This document shows positions 36,355-63,545 of a DNA stretch of 64,000 nucleotides, piece after piece. The notes below the pieces were generated by a model, which saw nothing but the letters and a program-made list of their open reading frames with translations, was not told the origin of the DNA and did no database searches. Each line of letters begins with the position of its first letter. Positions within the stretch are counted from its first letter, which is position 1. Made by a program: the position numbers and the translations under genes. Source of the DNA: a virus; the IMG/VR virus record IMGVR_UViG_3300035703_000053, positions 1 to 64,000 of that record; one strand, written 5' to 3'.

Positions 36355-37305
36355 CCAAGGGCTCTTTATCCCTTGGTTCTACAGCTTTACCATTGCTGCA
36401 GCTCAGACTATATCATCACCCTTCAATTAACTATTGAGTTGGGTGCGGGGCACTCGTGTCGCCTTATCGTCCATTTCAGGTATCTGAAGTTTGGACTCGC
36501 TTAACCATTCAGAAACAGTTCCTGTTCGGTTAAGGTCGGCTTTGTATCCTAAGCAAGGAAGAATGTAAGGTTGTATTTTCTCAATTAAGTTTTTGCACTG
36601 TTGAGAATGCCACCTTAGATAATAACTTCCCGACACATGACGAACTTTTGTATATTTTGAGCCTGTTAAAGACTGAATCCAATCACCAACATTGTTGGTT
36701 TTTTCTTCATCTTCACAGACCGCAAGCCATGCTGACTTTTCAATTCTTATAGCCCCCGTTGGCCTGGTACGTTTTCGAACCTCAAGAGATCCGTCGTCCA
36801 TCCAAAATAGAGCAAGTTCTTGAAGTCCAAGACCATCGAGAACTTTGGGTGAAATGATCTTCTTGCCTATCGGATAAAGAAGTTCATACACTGGGGTCAG
36901 TATTTTCTTGTTTGTAACACCAAAACGAGCTGCCGGATATTTGCCTTTGTCAACAAAGCATTTAATACTTGCTTTGGTTCCAAGAATTGCATTTAGCTTT
37001 TCCAGTTGCCAAACAGCATAGGCAAGGTGTTGCTGCTTCCTTTGAATATGTAGCGTTACGGATCCAGATCTTTTACATCTAGACAAACACCCATCACCAA
37101 GGGAGCATCCAATCAAGAATCTTTGGCTTTCAAGGTTCGTCATGGGGCCGACAACGTTAGTCGTTGAACCTTCCATTTATTACTAAATGGCTTGGCTGCT
37201 GATTACCCTACCAGTATAGCTCTTTAGAGTACTGGCTGGGGGGCTTCCAGCAATTCACCCCGTTTTCGACGCAGATTACGCTGCGAAGGAGCTTACCGGA
37301 GTACC
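36355..37305 (-). mobile_element. Group I intron in the capsid gene (951 nt, ends inferred)
   Basis: The insert splits the capsid gene. At the 5' end TTGCT|GG pairs with CCGGTAA across TACT, a P1-like helix in which the last exon U pairs with G. Near the 3' end lie TGATGATATAGTC, a P7-like strand, and the hairpin CCAAGGG...CCCTTGG, a P9-like stem, ending in G. The intron contains a LAGLIDADG endonuclease gene. The exact ends are not proven, but they restore one continuous capsid frame. Confidence 0.78.
36427..37176 (-). CDS. LAGLIDADG homing endonuclease, intron-encoded
   Basis: Two LAGLIDADG-type helices are present: LIGCSLGDG (21-29, catalytic D28) and LALFWMDDGSL (121-131, D127/D128). The 249-aa length fits a monomeric two-motif enzyme. 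Segments such as KADLNRTGTVSEWL lie in the C-terminal domain. It would cut an intron-less capsid gene at the insertion site and drive intron homing. Confidence 0.88.
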   Translation of the reverse strand: MEGSTTNVVGPMTNLESQRFLIGCSLGDGCLSRCKRSGSVTLHIQRKQQHLAYAVWQLEKLNAILGTKASIKCFVDKGKYPAARFGVTNKKILTPVYELLYPIGKKIISPKVLDGLGLQELALFWMDDGSLEVRKRTRPTGAIRIEKSAWLAVCEDEEKTNNVGDWIQSLTGSKYTKVRHVSGSYYLRWHSQQCKNLIEKIQPYILPCLGYKADLNRTGTVSEWLSESKLQIPEMDDKATRVPRTQLNS

Positions 37306-54398: not shown

Positions 54399-54428
54399 AC
54401 GGGGGCTGCGCATCCGTTAATAACGCAG
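54399..54428 (+). ncRNA. Mini H-type pseudoknot, copy 1
   Basis: Stem 1 ACGG (54399-54402)/CCGT (54414-54417) and stem 2 CTGCG (54406-54410)/CGCAG (54424-54428) interleave. Loop 2 ends in AT and loop 3 is TAATAA. The start codon of the next gene is 22 nt downstream. The same architecture recurs at seven more places in this block. Confidence 0.7.
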
Positions 54429-54450
54429 AGTTCTACCACAGGTTAGTTCA

Positions 54451-54820: not shown

Positions 54821-54848
54821 ACGGGGGCTGCGCATCCGTACAACGCAG
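54821..54848 (+). ncRNA. Mini H-type pseudoknot, copy 2
   Basis: ACGG/CCGT (54821-24, 54836-39) and CTGCG/CGCAG (54828-32, 54844-48) repeat copy 1 exactly in stems, but loop 3 is ACAA. The next ATG is 23 nt downstream. The shared stretch ACGGGGGCTGCGCATCCGT is identical in both copies. Confidence 0.72.
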
Positions 54849-54871
54849 AACATTCCATCGCATTCAACGCA

Positions 54872-55048
54872 ATGATTTATTCGGTATGCATTAAGAGTTC
54901 GTTGTCGTATCAAGATTTCTTGTTTGCCAAAACATTGTATAGCTCAGTAGAGAAAGAGTTTTCTACTGAGCAACAAGCTCAACAATATATCCAATCTTTT
55001 GAAGATTGGGAGCGTAACTATTTACATATAGAAGTGTTTCCGTTCTAA
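54872..55048 (+). CDS. Hypothetical protein (58 aa)
   Basis: ATG 54872 to TAA 55046-55048 encodes MIYSVCIKSSLSYQDFLFAK followed by an acidic helix and the end HIEVFPF. Pseudoknot copy 2 sits just upstream and a tRNA-like element just downstream. No family recognised. Confidence 0.6.
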   Translation: MIYSVCIKSSLSYQDFLFAKTLYSSVEKEFSTEQQAQQYIQSFEDWERNYLHIEVFPF

Positions 55049-55056
55049 GTTTTAAC

Positions 55057-55095
55057 GCCTGATGGTGCAGGAAGGGTTCGACTCCCTTCCCAGGC
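55057..55095 (+). ncRNA. tRNA-like element 1 (acceptor/T-arm minihelix)
   Basis: GCCTG (55057-61) pairs with CAGGC (55091-95). Next to the 3' strand, exactly as in tRNA, is a 7-bp T-arm GGAAGGG/CCCTTCC (55070-76, 55084-90) with the canonical T-loop TTCGACT. No anticodon arm fits in the 8 nt between the 5' strand and T-arm. It begins eight bases after the upstream stop codon. Confidence 0.65.
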
Positions 55096-55098
55096 ATT

Positions 55099-55122
55099 GC
55101 CCCCAGCGGAGATGGGCACCGC
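55099..55122 (+). ncRNA. Mini H-type pseudoknot, copy 3
   Basis: GCCC/GGGC (55099-102, 55114-117) and GCGG/CCGC (55106-109, 55119-122) interleave. It follows tRNA-like element 1 by three bases and is identical to copy 4 over about 30 nt. Confidence 0.7.
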
Positions 55123-55124
55123 AC

Positions 55125-55139
55125 AACAGGAGTTTCCTG
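55125..55139 (+). promoter_or_regulatory. Shine-Dalgarno-containing hairpin
   Basis: ACAGGA and TCCTGT pair around GTT; the loop and stem hold AGGAG, the ribosome site for the GTG start at 55139. A matching hairpin (CATGGA/TCCATG) stands before the gene at 55626. Pairing would hide the ribosome site. Confidence 0.5.
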
Positions 55140-55234
55140 TGGACTACACACCAGTCGGTCAGGTTATTGCACCTTACGTTTCACTGGTTGCAATATTCAT
55201 TGCTGCCTTTGTAATAGGTTACGTAACCGACTGA
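55139..55234 (+). CDS. Membrane peptide (31 aa), GTG start
   Basis: The GTG at 55139 has AGGAG nine bases upstream. The peptide MDYTPVGQVIAPYVSLVAIF continues IAAFVIGYVTD, one transmembrane helix. The stop lies inside tRNA-like element 2. Tiny membrane peptides in early regions often act on host membranes, but this is not shown. Confidence 0.55.
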   Translation: MDYTPVGQVIAPYVSLVAIFIAAFVIGYVTD

Positions 55235-55275
55235 TCCGTATAAGCGGGTGACCAGGTGCAAACCCTGGTCCAGTT
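55229..55275 (+). ncRNA. tRNA-like element 2
   Basis: GACTG/CAGTT (55229-33, 55271-75) encloses hairpin ATCCG/CGGGT (55234-49) and T-arm GACCAGG/CCTGGTC (55250-56, 55264-70) with loop TGCAAAC. The three helices abut without unpaired bases. The upstream stop codon is inside the 5' part. Confidence 0.7.
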
Positions 55276-55278
55276 ATT

Positions 55279-55302
55279 GCCCCCAGCGGAGATGGGCACC
55301 GC
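55279..55302 (+). ncRNA. Mini H-type pseudoknot, copy 4
   Basis: GCCC/GGGC (55279-82, 55294-97) and GCGG/CCGC (55286-89, 55299-302), identical to copy 3. The next start codon is 17 nt downstream. Confidence 0.7.
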
Positions 55303-55319
55303 ACAATCCACTGCAAAGC

Positions 55320-55535
55320 ATGTACATCATCTTTGTTAATGGCGAACAGCATAGCTGCTATGGCTCTAACGAATACGTTGAGGCCATAGAAGAAGCTGCT
55401 CAGCTGGACCACATGTACAACTCACCTGAGTTGAACGGTGGCGTCCAGGGCGCCACAGCGGTCGAGATTCTGACTGTATCAGGCAGGATACTGTCTGATG
55501 CAGAGCTTGATGCTCGTGCAGCTATGGCTGACTAA
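55320..55535 (+). CDS. Hypothetical acidic protein (71 aa)
   Basis: The start MYIIFVNGEQHSCYGSNEYV is after the pseudoknot; an in-frame ATG at 55248 lies within the structured RNA and is unlikely. The protein ends DAELDARAAMAD. The N-terminal beta strand and the following helix may form a small domain. No family recognised. The stop is the first base triplet of tRNA-like element 3. Confidence 0.6.
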   Translation: MYIIFVNGEQHSCYGSNEYVEAIEEAAQLDHMYNSPELNGGVQGATAVEILTVSGRILSDAELDARAAMAD

Positions 55536-55581
55536 CTGATCCGTACACACGGACTGGGAGGTGTGAGCCCTCCCTCAGTTA
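55533..55581 (+). ncRNA. tRNA-like element 3
   Basis: TAACTGA/TCAGTTA (55533-39, 55575-81) is a 7-bp acceptor-like stem. Hairpin TCCGT/ACGGA (55540-53) and T-arm GGGAGG/CCTCCC (55556-61, 55569-74) with loop TGTGAGC follow. T-arm and 3' strand are contiguous, as in tRNA. The stop codon TAA opens the element. Confidence 0.72.
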
Positions 55582-55583
55582 TT

Positions 55584-55609
55584 GCCCGACCGTAGGGATG
55601 GGCTCCTAC
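55584..55609 (+). ncRNA. Mini H-type pseudoknot, copy 5
   Basis: GCCC/GGGC (55584-87, 55600-603) and GTAGG/CCTAC (55592-96, 55605-609). Stem 2 differs completely from copies 3 and 4 yet still pairs. Confidence 0.72.
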
Positions 55610-55612
55610 ACA

Positions 55613-55628
55613 CATGGAGTTATCCATG
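55613..55628 (+). promoter_or_regulatory. Shine-Dalgarno/start hairpin
   Basis: CATGGA and TCCATG pair around GTTA; GGAG in the 5' arm is the ribosome site for ATG 55626, which is part of the 3' arm. It parallels the hairpin at 55125. Confidence 0.5.
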
Positions 55629-55910
55629 GATTTGACTACAGGTTGGCAGCAACATCCCAACGTGCCTGGTGGTTACCACCTGGTTTACGTTGATGATCTG
55701 GTCGGTGACTTATCCATTGTTACTGGACCGAGAGGTTCAGGGCTAATGGCATCTAACGACCCAGGTCAGGAACCTACTTATGAAGTGTGGTTTCCAGGGA
55801 TGGCTGATCCAACCGGTCACCTAACACTTGATGAGATCAAAGGGATCATCAAGTACATGCGTCAACGTGAGCAGGAGCGTATGAACTACTGCTACAACGA
55901 AGACAACTGA
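55626..55910 (+). CDS. Hypothetical protein (94 aa)
   Basis: The start MDLTTGWQQHPNVPGGYHLV has GGAG nine bases upstream; an in-frame ATG at 55614 would overlap that site. The middle (RGSGLMASNDPGQEPTYEVW) is loop-rich and the end is helical. No family recognised. The stop is inside tRNA-like element 4. Confidence 0.6.
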   Translation: MDLTTGWQQHPNVPGGYHLVYVDDLVGDLSIVTGPRGSGLMASNDPGQEPTYEVWFPGMADPTGHLTLDEIKGIIKYMRQREQERMNYCYNEDN

Positions 55911-55951
55911 TCCGTATAAGCGGGAGGCAGGGTGCAAACCCCTGCCCAGTT
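55905..55951 (+). ncRNA. tRNA-like element 4
   Basis: AACTG/CAGTT (55905-09, 55947-51), hairpin TCCG/CGGG and T-arm GGCAGGG/CCCTGCC (55926-32, 55940-46) with loop TGCAAAC. The upstream stop codon TGA is at 55908-10. Confidence 0.7.
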
Positions 55952-55954
55952 ATT

Positions 55955-55973
55955 GCCAACCACTGAGGTTGGC
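55955..55973 (+). ncRNA. Hairpin in the pseudoknot position
   Basis: GCCAACC pairs with GGTTGGC around ACTGA. It follows tRNA-like element 4 at the place where a pseudoknot follows the others, but a second stem is not visible. Confidence 0.5.
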
Positions 55974-55984
55974 TTGCAAACACA

Positions 55985-56158
55985 ATGGGCATTCGCAAAA
56001 CTTTGGCCAATGCACTTAACTCGACAGCAGCAATGCTGGAGAGTGACACATCTAAAGAGTACATCAGCGCCAAGCTGAGTGAGTACCGTATCCGTGCGGC
56101 AGCAATCATGATGCCAAAGGATATGGCATTCATCATTACTCCTAAGACAGACATTTGA
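55985..56158 (+). CDS. Hypothetical protein (57 aa)
   Basis: MGIRKTLANALNSTAAMLES is followed by a basic helix and the end MAFIITPKTDI. It is helical and slightly basic. No family recognised. It is the last gene of the tRNA-like segment. Confidence 0.55.
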   Translation: MGIRKTLANALNSTAAMLESDTSKEYISAKLSEYRIRAAAIMMPKDMAFIITPKTDI

Positions 56159-56189: not shown

Positions 56190-56417
56190 ATGTTTATCTA
56201 TCAACCAAAGGATGCACTTGATCGTGTCGTATGGTATGGAGGTGAATCTACTCAGCTCCACTATGAGCAGGAAGTAGATGGATGGGACGGCAATCCTGAT
56301 TGGATTGAACGTTCAGTTCGTACTCTTGGTGGTGGTATACCAGCGGGAGTATCTGAACTACAAGCCGAGCTTGTGGATTATTACAACTACTGTCAGTGCG
56401 CAGTTAACTACGATTGA
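56190..56417 (+). CDS. Hypothetical acidic protein (75 aa)
   Basis: The protein MFIYQPKDALDRVVWYGGES ends in SELQAELVDYYNYCQCAVNY plus Asp. It is rich in aromatic and acidic residues. No family recognised. The bistable RNA element follows the stop. Confidence 0.55.
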   Translation: MFIYQPKDALDRVVWYGGESTQLHYEQEVDGWDGNPDWIERSVRTLGGGIPAGVSELQAELVDYYNYCQCAVNYD

Positions 56418-56419
56418 CT

Positions 56420-56476
56420 CCTGTAATTAACCCTTTGCTTTGGCAGAGGGTTTCCTACAGGATTCAACAATCCTGT
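56420..56476 (+). ncRNA. Bistable intergenic RNA element, copy A
   Basis: CCTGTA/TACAGG (56420-25, 56456-61) encloses a 10-bp hairpin starting AACCCT (56429-52, loop TTTG). The strand ACAGGATT (56457-64) can instead pair with AATCCTGT (56469-76). The two forms exclude each other. Confidence 0.65.
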
Positions 56477-56501: not shown

Positions 56502-56741
56502 ATGACTCCTGCATACGTTGAACGGCTACTTACACAAGATGCTCGACTGCTTGCCAGGAGAGATTCCCCTGCCATTGACCAAGATCTTGAGCAGCAGCGT
56601 CAAGCTGCACTCGAAATCTTTTTCAAATGGCAGGATGATGCCTGTCAATTTGAAGACGTTATACCGTTCTGTGTTGTGCTCCAGCGCAAAGTAAATCTCA
56701 ATCGAGATTTGCTACGTTGGGAACGCCAGAACGCAGACTGA
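56502..56741 (+). CDS. Hypothetical protein (79 aa)
   Basis: MTPAYVERLLTQDARLLARR is followed by helical Gln/Asp-rich sequence and FEDVIPFCVVLQRKVNLNRD. Predicted all-alpha. No family recognised. Confidence 0.55.
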   Translation: MTPAYVERLLTQDARLLARRDSPAIDQDLEQQRQAALEIFFKWQDDACQFEDVIPFCVVLQRKVNLNRDLLRWERQNAD

Positions 56742-56742
56742 C

Positions 56743-56813
56743 TTCTGTACTTAACCTTCCGTTGATATGAATTCGTATCGGCGGTAGGTTTTCTACAGGA
56801 CTCAACATCCTGT
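56743..56813 (+). ncRNA. Bistable intergenic RNA element, copy B
   Basis: TTCTGTA/TACAGGA (56743-49, 56794-800) encloses AACCT/AGGTT and a longer inner arm. ACAGGA (56795-800) can alternatively pair with TCCTGT (56808-13) across CTCAACA. The inner hairpin differs from copy A in sequence but not in outline. Confidence 0.65.
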
Positions 56814-56856: not shown

Positions 56857-57276
56857 ATGTTTAGCAACACCATTATCGGTCGCGTTGTTTACATGGAGCC
56901 TGCCGTGCATGAAGGTAGGGAATTCCTGGCTATCAAGCTGGCAGTATCCGATATCTCTGGCAACGAGATCCGTATTAAATTCAACAACTCGAACGGGTTG
57001 TTTACTGCGTACAAGAATGGCACACTCGTTATTGGTCACCAGCTAATCCTTACTCAGTTCGACGTTCGTCTTAATAGCATTCGTACGCATTACCTCAAAG
57101 ATGGCCTGCTTCATCAGCTGAGGTATCCGGAGATTGCACTGACGAAGGTCAGAGCTTTTATGGGTTCAGCTCCAAGGCAGAAGGCAGAAGTGCCTCATGC
57201 CTACACCGATAACCAACAGGTGGAAGAGCTGACACCATACGGTGGCGAACCAACGCTAGAGACTGTACCGTTCTGA
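56857..57276 (+). CDS. OB-fold/SSB-like protein candidate (139 aa)
   Basis: IIGRVVYMEPAVHEGREFLA then IKLAVSDISGNEIRIKFNNS resembles the first strands of a single-stranded DNA-binding OB fold (N.x.GR...P..R...G......LAV). The C-terminal PTLETVPF is acidic-hydrophobic and ends in PF, like the SSB tail that recruits partners. Single-stranded-DNA binding is thus possible, but the match is by eye and the core is divergent. Confidence 0.45.
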   Translation: MFSNTIIGRVVYMEPAVHEGREFLAIKLAVSDISGNEIRIKFNNSNGLFTAYKNGTLVIGHQLILTQFDVRLNSIRTHYLKDGLLHQLRYPEIALTKVRAFMGSAPRQKAEVPHAYTDNQQVEELTPYGGEPTLETVPF

Positions 57277-57277
57277 A

Positions 57278-57343
57278 GTCTGCACTTAACCCTTCTGTCG
57301 AGAGACAGTGGGTTTTCTGCAGACATCTCACCGCAGGTGTCTG
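57278..57343 (+). ncRNA. Bistable intergenic RNA element, copy C
   Basis: GTCTGCA/TGCAGAC (57278-84, 57318-24) encloses AACCC/GGGTT with inner CTGTC/GACAG and a GNRA-type loop GAGA. CAGACA (57320-25) can instead pair with TGTCTG (57338-43). The outer stem differs from copies A and B yet pairs fully. Confidence 0.68.
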
Positions 57344-60207: not shown

Positions 60208-60523
60208 TCAAGAACACAACGGCAACCGTACGTGTATCTCGATGACTGACCTCTCCCCCGCCGCTGCTGCTGTCAGGGCCGCTTACTCGGAAGGCTGCTA
60301 TTTGCTGATGCCGCACCGCAAGCATCAACTGGATGGCATGGCTTGCCCTGGGCTAACCTCCGCCATCCGCGCTATTGCGGATCAGGTGGTGCCAGAGGAA
60401 CCGGAGCCAGATCAATCAGCTATGACGTTTTCAGATTGGAATCTCAAAACTGAAAGCTGGGATGCCCGCATGGCTACTCGCTCCGCGATCCTCGCCATTG
60501 CCTACGAGCTGGAGGCTGTTTGA
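60200..60523 (+). CDS. Host-derived-looking protein (107 aa), GC-rich
   Basis: The chain contains SPAAAAVRAAYSEGCYLLMP, AIRAIADQVVPEEPEPDQSA and RSAILAIAYELEAV. The pattern AAxxAVxxA...L..ALRAAADQVVPE....LLAIAxELE is common in picocyanobacterial short proteins of unknown function. Its GC content is visibly higher than that of its neighbours, which suggests transfer from a host. The ATG overlaps the previous stop. Confidence 0.6.
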   Translation: MTNQEHNGNRTCISMTDLSPAAAAVRAAYSEGCYLLMPHRKHQLDGMACPGLTSAIRAIADQVVPEEPEPDQSAMTFSDWNLKTESWDARMATRSAILAIAYELEAV

Positions 60524-63217: not shown

Positions 63218-63469
63218 ATGTCAGGGTCCATTGCTCCAGGTGCAGACGATGATCAACAGCCACTATCAGTGGAGGATCAACGGCTGCTTGCAATGGCCCT
63301 GGCCAACCTTGGTCAATACATTCATGACAACTCACCACACTATGAGTTGATTGAAGATCCAAGGAACGATGATGACTATGACACCTGGGAGGTGGGTATG
63401 GAACCACTACCAGGTGATCATACTTGGCGGTCTAATTCCATAGACGTAAGTCCAAGTAACGGGGTGTGA
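63218..63469 (+). CDS. Hypothetical acidic protein (83 aa)
   Basis: MSGSIAPGADDDQQPLSVED precedes a helix and an acidic DPRNDDDYDTWEVGMEPLPG segment. Its last codons overlap the 5' end of the tRNA-Leu gene, so reading frame and tRNA share ten bases. No family recognised. Confidence 0.55.
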   Translation: MSGSIAPGADDDQQPLSVEDQRLLAMALANLGQYIHDNSPHYELIEDPRNDDDYDTWEVGMEPLPGDHTWRSNSIDVSPSNGV

Positions 63470-63545
63470 TGAAATTAGAAACCATGACTGACTTAAAATC
63501 AGTTGGCCTTTGGCCTTGCAGGTGCAAGTCCTGTCACCCCGACCA
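63460..63545 (+). tRNA. tRNA-Leu(UAA), CCA encoded
   Basis: Acceptor CGGGGTG/CACCCCG closes the molecule, anticodon stem ACTGA/TCAGT (63487-91, 63499-503) carries loop CTTAAAA with anticodon TAA. A long variable arm (GGCC TTT GGCC) marks a class II tRNA. T-stem GCAGG/CCTGT has loop TGCAAGT, unusual in having G at position 55, as in tRNA-like elements 2 and 4. A 3' CCA follows the discriminator A. The D-arm is short (ATG/CAT) and lacks the usual GG. It reads UUA (and UUG). Confidence 0.85.

Follow-up and report, generated by a model that had tools for sequence, protein, structure and literature searches.

The question raised by this locus is why structures resembling one half of a tRNA should stand at the borders of tiny phage genes. 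The window, the whole 64 kb stretch of DNA that was analysed out of a virus record of 83,753 bases, comes from a phage related to Synechococcus phage S-EIV1, the sole annotated phage resembling the element region. A preliminary description had placed four tRNA-like structures in a run of very small genes, and all four were confirmed in the sequence itself, by a geometric scan and with a covariance model. The T-loops reported for elements 1 to 4 (TTCGACT, TGCAAAC, TGTGAGC and TGCAAAC) match the sequence, the outer stems pair as GCCTG/CAGGC, GACTG/CAGTT, AACTG(A)/(T)CAGTT and AACTG/CAGTT, and the T-arm does abut the 3' strand of the acceptor stem. The structures had thus been drawn correctly but incompletely: a D-arm-like hairpin in three elements, a nearly invariant A-UU behind the acceptor stem and, two bases beyond it, a pseudoknot or hairpin had all been omitted.

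All four elements lie on the plus strand. Elements 2 to 4 are composed of three helices: an acceptor-like stem P1 (NNCTG/CAGNN), a D-arm-like hairpin P2 (UCCG...CGGG, or UCCGU...ACGGA in element 3) and a T-arm of 7 bp, which in element 3 consists of 6 bp plus a mismatch. Element 2 (55229-55276) has a P2 of UCCG, 6 nt and CGGG and a 7-bp T-stem; element 3 (55534-55581) has the P2 UCCGU-ACAC-ACGGA and the T-stem GGGAGG/CCTCCC; element 4 (55905-55952) has the P2 UCCG/CGGG and the T-stem GGCAGGG/CCCTGCC. The discriminator is A in each. Element 1 (55057-55096) is a form without the D-stem, in which GCCTG (55057-55061) pairs with CAGGC (55091-55095) ahead of the discriminator A at 55096, the T-stem (55070-55076/55084-55090) encloses the loop at 55077-55083, and the spacer ATGGTGCA retains a GGTG resembling a D-loop remnant. 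As had also been claimed, the upstream stop codon lies within three of the four: TGA 55232-55234 falls in P1 of element 2, TAA 55533-55535 overlaps P1 of element 3 and TGA 55908-55910 falls in P1 of element 4. Behind each discriminator come UU and a further structure. This is an H-type pseudoknot after element 1 (55097-55122; S1 GCCC/GGGC, S2 GCGG/CCGC), element 2 (55277-55302) and element 3 (55582-55610; S1 GCCC/GGGC, S2 GTAGG/CCTAC, recognized from its sequence as of the same family as the covarying pseudoknots described below); after element 4 (55953-55973) the downstream domain takes its other form, the plain hairpin GCCAACC-ACTGA-GGTTGGC. The neighbouring plus-strand ORFs run from 54872 to 55048 (58 aa), 55139 to 55234 (starting at GTG 55139 or an earlier codon), 55320 to 55535 (71 aa), 55614 to 55910 (starting at 55614 or 55626) and 55985 to 56158 (57 aa), and a search of the small ORFs around the elements found no protein family. 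The start of the last one resembles the gene behind the second S-EIV1 element (MGIRKxxA).

The geometric scan required a T-loop of the form G-T[GT][CT]RANN-C and a 12-bp stack of T-stem and acceptor, and nothing else. On both strands of the 64 kb it returned exactly these four elements, with 0.1 expected per 64 kb from shuffles. The covariance model, built from 17 copies with element 1 left out, recovered element 1 at E = 4e-6, element 3 at 4.6e-15 and element 4 at 8.5e-21; an additional match at 60340-60389 (E 0.0065) has no T-arm and was taken as chance. Folded alone with RNAfold, only elements 2 and 4 adopt the tRNA-like fold, and because elements 1 and 3 have a competing minimum-energy fold, the case for these two rests on comparison. 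Rfam 15, at gathering and relaxed thresholds, gave nothing but chance matches at the elements. Neither the Rfam tRNA model RF00005 nor ARAGORN reports a tRNA there, ARAGORN places no gene at an element in the homologous loci, and the only tRNA that the two detect in the window is a tRNA-Leu at 63460-63545.

Sequence comparison places elements 2 to 4 in a conserved RNA family of viral contigs, with relatives in more than 100 of them, S-EIV1 included. The strict consensus pattern CTGATCCG..AGCGGG..GTGCAAACC occurs in at least 119 viral stretches and has no match in 84,980 prokaryotic genomes. Two copies are found in S-EIV1 and one to four in each of 19 long related records out of 19. Within the fetched related loci, the 17-copy model finds about 250 matches with diverse T-loops (TGCAAAC, TTCGATT, TTCAATG, TTTAAGT, ATCGAAT), and the geometric scan finds 199 matches in 1.04 Mb versus 1 in shuffled sequence; in 103 kb of other phage contigs the scan finds none. 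A 15-mer search was less useful, returning mostly chance matches, and of its 16 contigs only L001, L005, L009 and L015 bear the element. No earlier description of such phage elements was found in Rfam or in the open-access literature searched, in line with the initial statement that no phage array of this kind had been described, though RNase P does cut other phage RNAs (PMC11143913).

Covariation in related phages had been named at the outset as the check on the fold, and it was strongly passed. Across the helices of a 17-sequence alignment, 96.7% of cells hold a standard pair and 52 cells are changed on both sides, which no shuffle equals; P2 contributes little to this because it is nearly invariant. 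The elements share the T-loop consensus and the 12-bp acceptor/T stack of tRNA: among 183 distinct copies, 173 have 12 nt between T-loop and discriminator and two have 13, with the measuring motif missing from the remainder, and A58 is kept by every T-loop and U54 by nearly all. In most copies the acceptor is separated from the T-stem by 8-17 nt and the anticodon arm is absent, an anticodon-like arm being seen only in phage S-RIP1. A tRNA-like fold at gene borders is therefore well supported by comparative sequence evidence. The homologous copies also hold 203 G.U pairs versus 14 A.C mismatches on the top strand, and therefore it is the transcript (coding) strand that folds, as RNA. This bears on the proposal that the element is a recombination site that shuffles small genes, either through folded single-stranded DNA like integron attC or by plain homology. 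One upstream gene does meet different downstream genes across phages, with 22 of 116 upstream gene clusters pairing with two or more partners. However, an integron attC folds from the bottom strand of single-stranded DNA, whereas the excess of G.U over A.C points to RNA of the transcript strand, and plain homology has no need of covarying stems. We consider a recombination site highly improbable; the shuffling of small genes may be a by-product.

The position of the element is tied to the ends of genes. The upstream stop codon overlaps it in 153 of 182 copies, compared with 9% of random windows, TGA stands at the identical P1 position in 111 copies, and a downstream ORF begins no more than 110 nt away in 179 of 182. 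A riboswitch was dropped as an explanation because the same element stands before many unrelated genes, and a terminator with a promoter was dropped as well, as no intrinsic terminator (a GC hairpin followed by a U run) or promoter-like site was found at any of the four elements. Stop-codon readthrough, in which a structure behind UGA lets ribosomes pass the stop, would account for the use of UGA (139 of 175 cases) with a structure after it, but in 34 of 130 UGA cases, elements 2 and 4 among them (TGA TCC GTA TAA), the element itself contains another stop in frame, and we give this explanation next to no weight.

Stop codons also bear on classical tRNA punctuation, in which RNase P would cut 5' of the acceptor stem and RNase Z 3' of it to excise a small tRNA-like RNA, as the preliminary description had proposed. 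RNase P accepts minimal substrates of this kind, made of a T-loop and a 12-bp stack of acceptor and T-stem. The enzyme cuts phage M3 RNA, the phage-derived C4 RNA, T4 gene 32 mRNA and some operon mRNAs (PMC11143913). Here, though, a 5' cut would strip the upstream message of its stop codon, because this codon overlaps the element, mostly as a TGA in the acceptor stem; in 153 of 182 copies it would be cut off or broken, leaving non-stop messages. Excision by both enzymes is thus unlikely, while gene punctuation by a tRNA-like structure stands as the best available reading of the elements. Since the RNase P cut would remove the stop codon, a 3'-only cut of the RNase Z type fits better.

On the 3' side of the element, 151 of 178 copies have A as the discriminator, 172 have UU directly behind it, and none has CCA there; the phage's own tRNA-Leu encodes ACCA. 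The elements thus have the 3' context of an RNase Z substrate, with no CCA after the discriminator and a U adjoining it. Directly behind the UU, a structure is present in 179 of 182 copies (88 H-type pseudoknots and 91 plain hairpins), and of the three copies assigned neither by script, one is a pseudoknot by eye. Both stems of the pseudoknot covary among 20 homologues (99.4% paired, 25 double changes), and the A-UU and the downstream pseudoknot or hairpin belong to one unit with the tRNA-like element. Such a unit could also work uncut: a stable structure in the mRNA where a gene ends could block exonucleases or aid ribosomes in restarting on the next gene. Its place between a stop and the next start, the pseudoknot or hairpin that follows, and the location of some starts inside hairpins that also hold an SD-like GGAG are consistent with this. 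These roles leave unexplained the exact tRNA geometry, the T-loop rules and an A-UU motif that lies outside the helix, and we regard an element that stays uncut as rather doubtful.

The explanation that we favour, at roughly one chance in two and from sequence comparison, is that a host RNase Z-type enzyme cuts polycistronic phage RNA once, at A|UU of each element. The T-loop and the 12-bp stack are what tRNA enzymes measure. Acting in cis where two genes of one transcript meet, and mimicking the half of a tRNA that holds acceptor and T-arm, the element would allow a host tRNA 3'-processing endonuclease to gauge the 12-bp stack from the T-loop and to make a single cut behind the discriminator. 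The upstream message would retain its stop codon and end in a compact tRNA-like structure resisting 3' exonucleases, and the downstream message would begin with UU and then a pseudoknot or hairpin, a 5' end expected to resist end-dependent RNases. Gene order would then be of little consequence, which would suit the shuffled small-gene arrays that hold the elements. We infer the cut from its fit to every conserved feature, and what is known of the enzyme is compatible with it. RNase Z cleaves immediately 3' of the discriminator and is able to leave a U at the 5' end (PMC8549757), in B. subtilis the maturation of tRNA is reported to be activated by a uracil close downstream (according to a title cited in PMC11649783), and RNase Z and RNase P are both present in the host group (PMC10989914). 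In the phage record, one beta-lactamase-fold model (PF12706) and one CCA-enzyme model (PF01743) gave no match.

Several points count against RNase Z. The enzyme often favours substrates that have been matured at the 5' end beforehand, and the uncut 5' side may slow it. The acceptor stems are short (5 bp) and their outermost pair often fails, the tRNA-like fold of elements 1 and 3 is not the one that RNAfold prefers, and a ribosome terminating in P1 would open P1. The near invariance of P2, with little covariation of its own, also weighs against this reading.

Among known systems, the plant mitochondrial t-elements would be the nearest analogue in function. These are intergenic tRNA-like structures that define endonuclease cleavage sites, according to a statement in PMC8003010 that cites Forner 2007 and Hanic-Joyce 1990. 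The phage elements likewise place a tRNA-like structure at a gene border, but t-elements belong to an organelle, whereas the phage elements are a compact, repeated and covarying family that overlaps with stop codons and is followed by a pseudoknot or hairpin of its own, with cutting as the presumed outcome. Animal mitochondria also use tRNA structure at the borders of genes in polycistronic RNA, although they punctuate with complete functional tRNAs and the phage elements have no anticodon arm. The cleavage by RNase P of phage C4 and M3 RNA and of E. coli operon mRNAs is a further case of tRNA-like folds serving as substrates of tRNA enzymes (PMC11143913), but those substrates are single RNAs and the phage elements are a conserved family at many gene junctions. 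The tRNA-like domain of tmRNA and the 3' tRNA-like structures of plant viruses share the mimicry of acceptor and T-arm; they differ from the elements in position and role, in their CCA end and in aminoacylation. Promoter-early-stem-loop (PeSL) cassettes of T4-type phages are, like the elements, repeated intergenic stem-loop modules in shuffled small-gene regions, but PeSLs carry promoters, whereas no promoter-like site was found at the elements and their fold is tRNA-like. The RNase III sites of phage T7 are comparable in that a polycistronic phage RNA is cut between its genes at structured sites, but they are long hairpins with no T-loop.

The elements form a conserved RNA family, new to Rfam, that is found at the borders between genes in common cyanophages of fresh water and the sea; in the model phage P-SSP7 it stands just before the capsid gene. 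If they are processing sites, phages use tRNA maturation enzymes as mRNA processors, a use known mainly from mitochondria; cyanophage transcriptome maps would need to be reread with cuts in mind, and the free shuffling of tiny phage genes would be explained. With somewhat less than even confidence, we suggest that cyanophages, and perhaps other phages, divide their messages through host tRNA enzymes by means of dedicated anticodon-less tRNA mimics. One cut would then provide a tRNA-like 3' cap upstream and a structured 5' cap downstream, such that any gene placed between two elements could still be expressed.

The mini form, represented by element 1, is found in 60 viral stretches from several phage groups. 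In 14 sequences from several phage groups its 12 pairs covary, with 167 of 168 cells paired (99.4%) and 34 double changes. Six genome contigs match the mini pattern, of which only a Prochlorococcus and a Synechococcus single-cell contig (L333 and L334) look genuine, and these may be phage DNA from infected cells. The GC-rich viral contigs L145 and L158 also have two distinct mini tRNA-like elements on their minus strands, arranged in tandem or at a short distance. In the T7-like cyanophages P-SSP7, P-SSP2, S-TIP37, S-SBP1 and S-RIP1, a tRNA-like element can be seen by eye between a short ORF and the capsid gene. The fold persists while the sequences differ between phages, and only S-SBP1 passes the strict scan, which the others miss by roughly a base or a pair. 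The S-RIP1 element (L207:1069-1130) includes one more hairpin, which resembles an anticodon arm and has a 7-nt loop, and it stands midway between tRNA and mini form.

Other T7-like cyanophages have an unrelated hairpin in the pre-capsid slot; its loop is CACCUCAGAGUCGGA, and behind it come UU and the same capsid-gene leader. The loop of this hairpin is invariant and its stem covaries (L201:864-900, L202:864-900, L203 and L206); it occurs in at least 120 viral stretches and has no Rfam match. In several of the records scanned (L195, L196, L202, L206 and L207), a glutamine-II riboswitch (RF01704) was observed behind psbA and upstream of the short pre-capsid ORF, which ends in the tRNA-like element or its substitute.

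Other structures were noticed close to the elements. Directly behind the stops of the next three genes (56417-56464, 56741-56802 and 57276-57326) stands a second element type, with an outer stem of the CCTGCA/TGCAGG type enclosing AACCC...GGGTT; it has 28 distinct copies in the window and related loci and is possibly another gene-border element. Start codons lie inside hairpins together with an SD-like GGAG at 55125-55141 (CAGGAG..TCCTGTG) and 55611-55628 (CATGGAG..TCCATG), and in homologous loci the sequence of these hairpins is varied yet paired. A repeated leader hairpin, GGGGCTGCGCATCCGT...ACGCAG, precedes small genes at 54401-54431 and 54823-54851 and is also present in S-EIV1 (L017:3657-3685). 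Elsewhere in the window, a minus-strand ORF at 36427-37176 resembles a LAGLIDADG-type homing endonuclease and adjoins a capsid-like ORF, a possible intron or intein.
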